A stretch of DNA of 64,000 nt from positions 5,518,501-5,582,500 of the forward strand of contig NC_067295.1 in assembly GCF_020740795.1 (NCBI RefSeq). Direction: 5' to 3'. The notes under the pieces are model-generated. The model searched no databases and had not been told where the DNA came from. It worked only from the letters and a program-made list of their open reading frames with translations. This document shows positions 60,305 through 63,300 of the stretch, one piece after another; position 1 is the first letter of the stretch, and each line of letters begins with the position of its first letter. A program made the position numbers and the translations under genes. This stretch comes from Apus apus (Eukaryota > Chordata > Aves > Apodiformes > Apodidae).

Positions 60305-63300
60305 ATGAAGTCATACCAGAAGCTGAGGACCTGGCAGCCAGCAGCATGCCAGCTGGAGGAGGAAGGGGCTGTCTCCACACCCAGCACCCGTGGCAAGCTG
60401 GCCCCGTGGTGGGTGGGCAGTGGGCTGCTGTTGGCTGCTGTGCTGCTGAGTGCCATCACAGTCTGGGTGCTGCAGCAAGTATCAGGGGGCTGGCCTGGAA
60501 CTGTGCTGCCCCCCAAATGTCTCCTGGTACCTGAAAGCCACCGGTTTGACTGCTACCCAGAGCGGCACGTAGTGGTGACTCAGGAGCTCTGTGAAAGCCG
60601 GGGGTGCTGCTTCATCGAGACCCCCCCGCCAGCAACAGGCAAGCGGGGGGTGCCCTGGTGCTTCTACCCCCCCGACTTCCCCAGCTACACTCTGGAGAGC
60701 CTCAACCAGACAGCGCTGGGCATGGTGGGGCTGCTGGTGAGGAGGGAGAAGGCTTATTACCCCCGGGACATCGAGATGCTGAGGCTGGATGTGGAGTTTG
60801 AGACAGACACACGGCTTCACATCAAGGTGAGCTCCCTGCTGGCTGCCCTTCAGAGCTTGTGTCCTTGTTTCTGCACCCCTGCACCCTTCATCCTGCAGGT
60901 GACCATCCCCTGCTCAGACTGAGTCTGGAAGCTACTGTGCTCGAGGCATGGCTGTATGTGGCCTCTCCACCCCTGTTCCCTCCTGCTTTGGTGGTCTTTA
61001 AAGCATGTGTTCTCCTTTTTGCAGATAACTGATGCAGCCAACCCACGGTACGAGGTTCCTCTTGAGGTTCCCAGGGCGACAAAGAGAGCAGAGAACCCAA
61101 TCTACAGCCTGGACTTCTCCTGGGACCCCTTTGGGGTGCTGCTGCGGCGCAGGGCAACAGGGAGAGTGCTGTAAGAACTCAGCTCCTCCACATCCCACAG
61201 TGGGCTGGGGAAAGCTCATCCTACCCTAGACTGACTCCAGCATGCTTCCCTGGGGTTTTTCCTTGGGGAAAACTGCACTGTGAGATCTCTAGTCAATAAT
61301 TGCTCTTTGACTTCATCTTTACAGCTGTGCTTATGTGGGGATGTGGCAGCACATGTCTACCTGGCTCCATGGCTGGCCATGTGCTTGCAGTGACAGTGGC
61401 AGGGCTGGGTGGGATCAGCAGCTCTCTAAAAACCTCCCAGTGACCTCATTCTTTGCCAGGTTCTACAGCAGCCAAATGTGGTGCAAGTCCCTGGCATGTC
61501 ACCAATAAGGGACCTGGTGACTCAGGGAAAGGGCCGCTGAAGGGTTGTGGCTTTGCCAGTTTCACCTTGCTTTTGGGTTTCCCTGGCTGTCCAGGCTTCA
61601 GGCGTTTTGTGGAAGAGTACTGTGGGTGGCTTTGCTGCACTGGTCTCAATCACCTCCATGGCTTTACCCACACTAAGCTGTTGGTGAGCACCAGTGGCCA
61701 GTTGATGTATAGCCAGGGTGTTTTGAGATCCCATCCTTTCCTCCTCCTTCCCATTTGCTGTTGCCTGTGTCTGTCCTTTATTTGGGAGCTGCTTATCAGC
61801 TAACAGCAGGCTAAGAAATCCCACTGCCACGTGGCCTCAGTGGTTAATAATAACCTTCTGGTACCAAAGGCAAGGCTGCACCATGCTGGGTCAAGCTGGT
61901 TCAGGCTTGGGCTGTGCCTTGCTGTCCATCCAGACCTGAATTTGCCACCTGGGCCGAGGTGTTGGGGCTGGATGTAGCGTGGGACATCCACTGCTGTGCT
62001 GGTGTCTGGGATGCTTTGTGAGGGAAGGGGTCAATCGTTGGTGGGCCAGTGGATCTATATGGATCCCAGCATCCTTCCTTGACTCTCTCCTTCCCTTGGT
62101 GACATCTTGGCAGGCTCAACACCACTGTGGCTCCCTTGATCTTTGCTGACCAGTTTATCCAGATATCCACATCACTCCCATCCCGGTTCCTCTATGGGCT
62201 GGGGGAGCACCGTGGCTCCCTCCTGCACAGCCTGGACTGGATCACCCTCACGCTGTGGGCACGTGACGTCTCTCCCACGGTACCATCTTCCTCCTCCCCG
62301 CAGGGATGCAGGGGGAAAGGATGAGGGCACCACTCTTCAGTGCATTGGACGAGCCCTAGGAAAACATGGCAGGGGGTGGGCAGCAGCACTGGGAGAGGCT
62401 GGGGGTGGTCAAGGCCGACGGGCAGATATGTGCTGGGCAGGATTTCAGAGCAATTGCAAAATGCTCTTGGCACTCCAAGGGCCCTGGGTGTTTTCCGCTC
62501 CACCCTGCCACTCGTGCAACAGGTTGCAGCAAGGCAGGAGGTTTCCCCCTCACCCAGCTCAGCTCAGTAGCAGCCCCTGAGCTGTGAGGAAGAAGCAGCC
62601 TCCTGTGGTCTTTAGCATCAGCTCTGAAACCATCCTCATCCCTCCTCTTGTCCTTCACAGGGGGTGACAGATGCCTGGTTAGGTGGTGGCAGCAGATGCA
62701 TCTCAGGGCCATTTATTCATCCCCGGTGATAAGGGGCTTTCCTGATTAGCCTGGGAGCTGCTCTCTCACACAGCACCTCCTCTTTGCAGGAATCATTCAA
62801 CCTCTATGGTGCTCACCCCTTCTACCTGCTGATGGAGGAGGGCGGAGATGCTCATGGGGTTTTCCTCCTCAACAGCAACGCAATGGGTAGGTGTCCCAAG
62901 GGACCCTGGCTGGCTCAGGGATGACCCAGTAAGTGGGGACGGATGGAAGTTGCCAGAGCAGCTGGTTCAGAAACTTGGGGGGAGAGGAAACTGTAAAAAG
63001 GAAAGATGTGGTTTGATGGCTCCGTTATTGGGCATTGCCATCTGTTTCCTGGCTACAGCGAGGCTATTTAGCAACTGCTTAGCAGTTTAACCACACGCCC
63101 AGCTGCCGAGTTGCTGTTGAAAAAGCATGTCCTTTGTGTACGGGTCCATGCCTGTTCCCCCTCCACCGGGAGCAGCCTTGCCCCCAGGCCTGGAGGCACG
63201 ACGGGGCTGGGATTGCCATCTGCCGCCCGCGCTCTTCCCAGCTGTGCTCCGCCAGCTGTGGCCGTGGGATCCACCCGTGCCTGCCAGCTGATAACGCAGC

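Follow-up and report, generated by a model that had tools for sequence, protein, structure and literature searches.

A putative signal-anchored acid alpha-glucosidase paralogue in Apus apus and its probable identity with avian GAA I

The DNA analysed here, referred to below as the window, is a 64,000-nucleotide stretch of the 1.1-Gb Apus apus genome (C15:5518501-5582500). Near its end lies an exon that we interpret, with moderate confidence and from sequence comparison, as the first coding exon of avian GAA I. This ancient paralogue of acid alpha-glucosidase (GAA) would be made as a signal-anchored precursor, reach lysosomes and digest glycogen. GAA itself breaks down glycogen in lysosomes, and its loss causes Pompe disease. 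Traced in its own genome the window gene is intact, with 926 residues, 19 coding exons and no internal stop, in a gene model in which exons 16 and 19 were placed by eye; it ends beyond the window, at contig base 5587937. ARAGORN returned 0 genes.

The N-terminus is encoded by an open frame of 174 codons (60305-60826) that lies between a splice acceptor (60294/60295) and a strong donor (60827). Its features are:

60295..60304, + strand: exon start, 10 bases before the ATG, with a pyrimidine-rich tract and cag before 60295.
60305..60826, + strand: first coding exon, comprising tail, hydrophobic segment, stalk, trefoil and the start of the beta-sheet domain (open frame; donor 60827, score 11.1; Pfam trefoil).
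60305..60403, + strand: predicted cytosolic tail, residues 1-33, hydrophilic, with 5 basic and 3 acidic residues.
60314..60325, + strand: codons of Y4-Q-K-L7, a YxxPhi match, in a tail that starts MKSYQKL.
60404..60472, + strand: predicted signal-anchor, residues 34-56 (19-residue Kyte-Doolittle peak of 2.19; no charged residue from 32 to 56).
60473..60517, + strand: stalk of 15 residues (57-71), between the hydrophobic segment and the first trefoil cysteine.
60518..60670, + strand: trefoil (P-type) domain, residues 72-122 (PF00088, E 4.5e-15).

This layout bears out the original prediction, which had described a 33-residue tail, a single hydrophobic segment at residues 34-56, a spacer of about 15 residues and then the trefoil, with Y4-Q-K-L7 in the tail as a fit to YxxPhi. 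The most hydrophobic 19-mer spans residues 37-55, and beyond residue 65 the best reaches a mean of 1.34. The 33-residue tail contains no acidic dileucine motif.

The remainder of the protein was predicted to be GAA-like, and the comparison of its domains, scores and exons agrees. A P-type trefoil is followed by the GH31 N-terminal beta-sheet domain (PF00088 E 1.5e-14; PF13802 E 6.2e-10), and the equivalents of human D282, D404, W481, D518, M519, R600 and D616 are all retained in an alignment with the human sequence. Over the five window exons, single-domain scores put human GAA at 370 bits, the two halves of maltase-glucoamylase (MGAM) at 215 and 205 and sucrase-isomaltase (SI) at 194; the top row of that listing, a double-unit MGAM chain at 422 bits, is the sum of both halves. 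The same ranking holds for the full protein compared with single units (human GAA 1081 bits, versus 821 for MGAM-N and 787 for SI), where the double-unit MGAM chain sums to 1511.9, and identity is 55% to human GAA versus 46% for the MGAM/SI comparison. Pattern searches for relatives gave 5 pattern matches and 0 relatives in prokaryotic genome contigs and no match in viral contigs. The coding exons that follow the first one in the window are:

61025..61170, + strand: coding exon 2, 146 nt, equal in length to its counterparts in human GAA and in a second GAA gene of this bird, on contig C18.
62114..62279, + strand: coding exon 3, 166 nt, from the gene model.
62790..62886, + strand: coding exon 4, 97 nt, from the gene model.
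63882..64000, + strand: coding exon 5, truncated where the window stops; its full genomic length is 120 nt.

All 14 exons from coding exon 2 to 15 have lengths identical to those of the C18 gene and, we take it, exactly those of human GAA.

Both SI and MGAM are type II anchored, and they combine trefoil and GH31 as the window protein does. They carry a double GH31 unit, however, whereas the window protein is a single unit of 926 residues without the tandem arrangement. The bird's own genes of this kind, which we take to be SI-like and MGAM-like, also differ from it, with tails of about 12 residues that lack a tyrosine (located by scanning upstream of their trefoil exons), a stronger anchor, and a tail-and-anchor exon that stands apart from the trefoil. 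Assignment of the window gene to SI/MGAM was rejected on these differences in tail, exon layout and anchor strength and on the lead of GAA by 260 bits. The MGAM-like gene (G000:C64:5144-10838) sits on a 362-kb contig, with low-complexity repeats filling the stretch after its first exon, and the SI-like gene, with its short tyrosine-free tail, lies at G000:C9:23521859-23526831. Two further GH31 matches, at G000:C36:9556276-9556737 (+) and 9566032-9566493 (-), lie in long open frames of opposing orientation, separated by about 9 kb, and are perhaps a duplicated gene.

A search of the bird's own genome with the first exon found two places, the exon itself and contig C18 (44% over residues 42-172). 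The C18 gene (G000:C18:11974549-11980766) has 19 coding exons for a protein of 882 residues, whose N-terminus, MPGPRGAAAALLALLVPLVPLVPPAAG-D, looks like a short signal peptide of the classical type. Between the first trefoil cysteine and the C-terminus, the C18 protein is identical to human GAA at 586 of 850 positions (68.9%), while the window protein matches human GAA at 469 of 851 (55.1%) and C18 at 479 of 848 (56.5%). In a quartet rooted with MGAM (843 ungapped columns), C18 grouped with human GAA and the window gene fell outside, with support of 100; informative sites were divided 40 versus 11 and 6, and both alternative topologies were rejected (AU p about 0.0003). The window gene is therefore neither the orthologue of human GAA nor a recent bird duplicate of a human-type GAA. 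By this sequence evidence the duplication that separates it from C18 predates the bird-mammal split, the quartet being a tree of four sequences that dates the event relative to birds and mammals and is silent on fish and amphibians.

The two loci also have distinct surroundings. The window gene follows, in order, a PSMG3-like gene, a TMEM184A-like gene and a small Maf, and precedes INTS1 (PF12432, E 2.4e-12):

24986..25201, + strand: PSMG3-like exon (PF10178 PAC3, E 1.5e-10).
33464..36972, + strand: TMEM184A-like exons (PF03619, E 1.9e-46).
46503..46898, - strand: bZIP exon of the small Maf, MAFK (PF03131, E 1.3e-32), with its first coding exon at 48046-48081.

The best solved relative of the small Maf is MafG; we take it to be MAFK from its sequence (ending VPFSAAS) and its neighbours, and the name TMEM184A for the PF03619 gene is likewise our assumption. 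The order PSMG3-TMEM184A-MAFK-INTS1 is presumably that of human 7p22.3, where to our knowledge there is no GAA. Beside the C18 gene lie an SLC26A11-like sulfate permease (PF00916) and SGSH (PDB 4mhx, E 5.1e-99), together with pieces that we take to be CCDC40-like and TBC1D16-like, on which Pfam reported BRE1 and nothing, respectively; these surroundings presumably agree with the content of human 17q25.3. A neighbourhood of the 17q25.3 type and the closest match to human GAA are thus both found at C18, and neither at the window gene, with its small Maf and INTS1. From place and tree together, we regard C18 as the human GAA orthologue and the window gene as a paralogue, in line with the original prediction of a GAA paralogue, which scores, tree and locus set apart from SI/MGAM and from human GAA alike. 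By exclusion, the C18 gene is probably avian GAA II. A survey of 48 bird genomes sorted gaa genes into two clusters and arrived at an estimate of a single ancestral copy (PMC6487185); our synteny and tree speak for two copies and against a single ancestral one in birds. The literature search returned no paper on a bird GAA paralogue near MAFK.

Human GAA and C18 share with the window protein the trefoil, GH31 domains, exon lengths and catalytic residues, but they lie at another locus, are only 55% and 56% identical to it and have a signal peptide where it has a tail and a long segment. The first trefoil cysteine is residue 33 in C18, 82 in human GAA and 72 in the window protein. The trefoil loop of the window protein is nearly of human length, and shorter in both the C18 orthologue and MGAM; in human GAA this loop (116-122) has been described as unique to lysosomal members (PMC5653652).

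The identity of the window gene can be narrowed through the quail, in which GAA I has been reported as a gene of 932 residues and 19 exons on record NC_029529.1, where a deletion at c.1096 (A366) in exon 6 causes Pompe disease (PMC12386088). In the window gene c.1096 likewise falls within coding exon 6 of 19 (c.1052-1170), and its A360, plus the six-residue difference in length (932 versus 926), gives 366, matching quail A366. The C18 gene is a poor fit, with 882 residues, exon 6 at c.917-1035 and c.1096 in exon 7. The MAFK-INTS1 region is, we assume, on chromosome 14 in chicken, and since NC_029520.1 is quail chromosome 5 (PMC8569122), serial numbering would make NC_029529.1 chromosome 14. 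The frameshift signature of the quail allele was not reproduced, as removing the G from A360 gives Arg and a stop at 21 (His and 23 in quail) and the sole codon giving His upon loss of G is A392, with a stop at 17; this comparison crosses species whose codons may differ, and the mismatch is not decisive. From length, exon position and inferred chromosome, we therefore consider the window gene and quail GAA I (Kunita et al., AB000967.1) likely orthologues; the quail protein would carry six residues more before A366 if that residue corresponds to A360. It would also follow that the quail protein has about 77 residues before its trefoil cysteine, leaving room for the same tail and anchor. According to Kunita et al., as cited in PMC12386088, GAA I produces lysosomal GAA activity in quail; a deficiency of GAA activity and storage of glycogen accompany loss of the gene (PMC12386088). 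Given this match, birds probably rely on the window gene for their working lysosomal enzyme, which would make it the main copy and not a subsidiary one. The excerpts of PMC6487185 and PMC12386088 used here contain no discussion of the avian GAA I N-terminus, and among the matches listed in the literature search nothing on a membrane-anchored avian GAA was on topic.

How this N-terminus is used depends on the hydrophobic segment. R29 and K31 stand directly before it, none of the 14 residues after it is charged, and the uncharged run extends over 25 residues, compared with 17 in human GAA and 22 in C18. Its peak hydropathy of 2.19 is close to that of the signal peptides of human GAA (2.22) and C18 (2.09), while the putative anchors of the SI-like and MGAM-like genes are stronger at 3.13 each; because the segment is moderate next to these, our confidence in an anchor is kept moderate. 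Hessa sums, obtained by plain addition of the scale values, are mixed (-0.52 for the window protein versus +0.06 for human GAA over 19 residues, and -0.53 versus -1.04 over 21). A type II signal-anchor precursor is our best, if tentative, reading of this sequence. The membrane-tethered type II build that had been predicted accordingly stands in part, in that the tail, the charges and the long uncharged run fit it, but its hydrophobic segment does not exceed the human signal peptide in hydropathy. The predicted contrast with human GAA holds for the tail and the long segment and weakens elsewhere, the peak hydropathies being the same and human GAA, with its signal peptide, having itself been described as synthesised in the form of a membrane-bound precursor (PMC7467391). 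Swapping that signal peptide raises the secretion of human GAA (PMC8869611). It is plausible, given the human precursor, that the window protein represents one end of an existing trait and not a new invention.

The same features bear on the possibility that tail and segment form a long signal peptide whose n-region is of unusual length and which signal peptidase removes around residue 61 to yield an ordinary soluble lysosomal protein. A hydropathy equal to that of the human signal peptide would suit such a signal, as would the sites right after the segment, where cuts after residue 61 (VSG/G) or 62 (SGG/W) satisfy the (-3,-1) rule. We nevertheless regard cleavage as possible rather than probable, since it would require an n-region of 33-44 residues and an uncharged run of 25, with basic R29 and K31 before the segment and 14 charge-free residues after it, and since human GAA, with a shorter segment, is still described as a membrane-bound precursor (PMC7467391).

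The region upstream of the ATG at 60305 was scanned between 58500 and 60290 for an ATG within 400 bases of a donor scoring at least 3. One candidate is:

59074..59096, + strand: uncertain upstream coding piece (MSRGDTCI...), in frame, with start context GCCACAATGT and a donor score of 6.2.

Splicing from donor 59097 to 60295 would add 11 residues in frame to the protein, but as 18 ATG-plus-donor combinations in the region join in frame, this piece is not special by itself. In the 14 combinations that could be scored, 15-residue means do not exceed 1.12, and the remaining 4 are too short, adding 5 to 12 residues; an upstream exon in this region as the source of a cleavable signal was therefore rejected. 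An alternative first exon could still be used in vivo, for instance one spliced from 59550, the strongest upstream donor-like site (score 10.2), giving another tail or bypassing ATG 60305. That site, the 18 in-frame combinations and a CpG-rich segment at about 58901-59600 speak for such an exon, which we judge improbable given that no combination in the scanned region supplies a hydrophobic signal, that the hydrophobic segment stays whatever in-frame addition occurs, and that the quail position c.1096 in exon 6 of 19 (PMC12386088) matches a count that begins at the trefoil exon. The published quail exon count likewise favours a start within the trefoil exon over the 59074 extension. An upstream ATG at 58982 opens another frame which, if 59096 is spliced to 60295, crosses ATG 59074 out of frame and ends at TGA 60306-60308, overlapping the main ATG; a regulatory role for this upstream frame is possible. 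Just upstream of the CpG-rich segment, window positions 58400-58760 look to us like an avian CR1 retroelement.

Routing through the tail motif, the last part of the original prediction, is weakly supported. When the 33-residue tail is shuffled, YxxPhi arises in 11.7% of cases, and in 13.4% for an extended tail of 44 residues, so that its frequency is near chance. Between the motif and residue 34 lie 29 residues counted from Y4 and 26 from L7, and Y4 is preceded by a serine, with no acidic residue at either x position. Lysosomal-type YxxPhi motifs usually stand 6-8 residues from the membrane, often after a glycine, whereas internalisation motifs stand at 10-40 (PMC4584282); YQKL is thus too distant and lacks the glycine and acidic residues of the lysosomal type, but, on the inferred topology, falls inside the internalisation range. 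The tail resembles those of the asialoglycoprotein receptor H1 and the transferrin receptor, both named in PMC4584282. In each of these receptors a tyrosine motif for internalisation lies in a type II tail; in the window protein that role is putative. The H1 receptor has a type II tail with YQDL near its N-terminus, and the similar position of YQKL in a type II tail argues against coincidence. Weighing this against the shuffle frequency, the missing glycine and a distance beyond that of typical lysosomal motifs (PMC4584282), we lean slightly towards a chance match with no sorting role, whatever the topology.

A second route is suggested by the glycans. Sites N134, N225 and N461 coincide with, or are no more than two residues from, the positions of human N140, N233 and N470, which we take to be the phosphorylated glycan sites of human GAA, and the window protein may therefore use a mannose-6-phosphate route. 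At the aligned positions, counterparts are missing for four of the seven human glycan sites, and the window protein has four others. An enzyme resident at the cell surface in the manner of SI and MGAM, instead of a lysosomal one, would share their type II anchoring and would suit the distance of YQKL, which is that of surface proteins to be internalised (PMC4584282). We consider this very improbable, as the single GH31 unit finds its best single-unit match in GAA by 260 bits, the tail, exon layout and anchor strength are unlike those of the bird's SI-like and MGAM-like genes, and, if the gene is quail GAA I, its loss accompanies deficient GAA activity and glycogen storage (PMC12386088).

In the model of an anchored lysosomal precursor that we prefer, the window protein would enter the ER through an uncleaved signal-anchor, as a type II protein with a cytosolic tail and a luminal enzyme, and would travel as a membrane protein. 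Lysosomal acid phosphatase, a type I membrane protein, also has a membrane-bound precursor. Delivery to lysosomes would rely on mannose-6-phosphate-type sugars on the glycan sites near those of human GAA, on the tail, or on both, with the tail acting as an internalisation signal if the cell surface is reached. A cut in the 15-residue stalk would then free a soluble enzyme, which would digest glycogen in the manner of human GAA.

A more far-reaching proposal, which we hold to be doubtful, is that birds break down glycogen in lysosomes with an ancient, non-orthologous GAA made as a type II precursor, whose own tyrosine tail signal delivers it independently of or beside mannose-6-phosphate, with the human-type soluble GAA II relegated to another role and the anchored copy lost from mammals. 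The Pompe-disease genes of birds and humans are probably not orthologous, and a membrane-anchored precursor may be one way of building a lysosomal glucosidase. Acid alpha-glucosidase is the enzyme used in human replacement therapy, and if the tail does carry the avian enzyme to lysosomes, it would be a natural design for delivery without the mannose-6-phosphate receptor.
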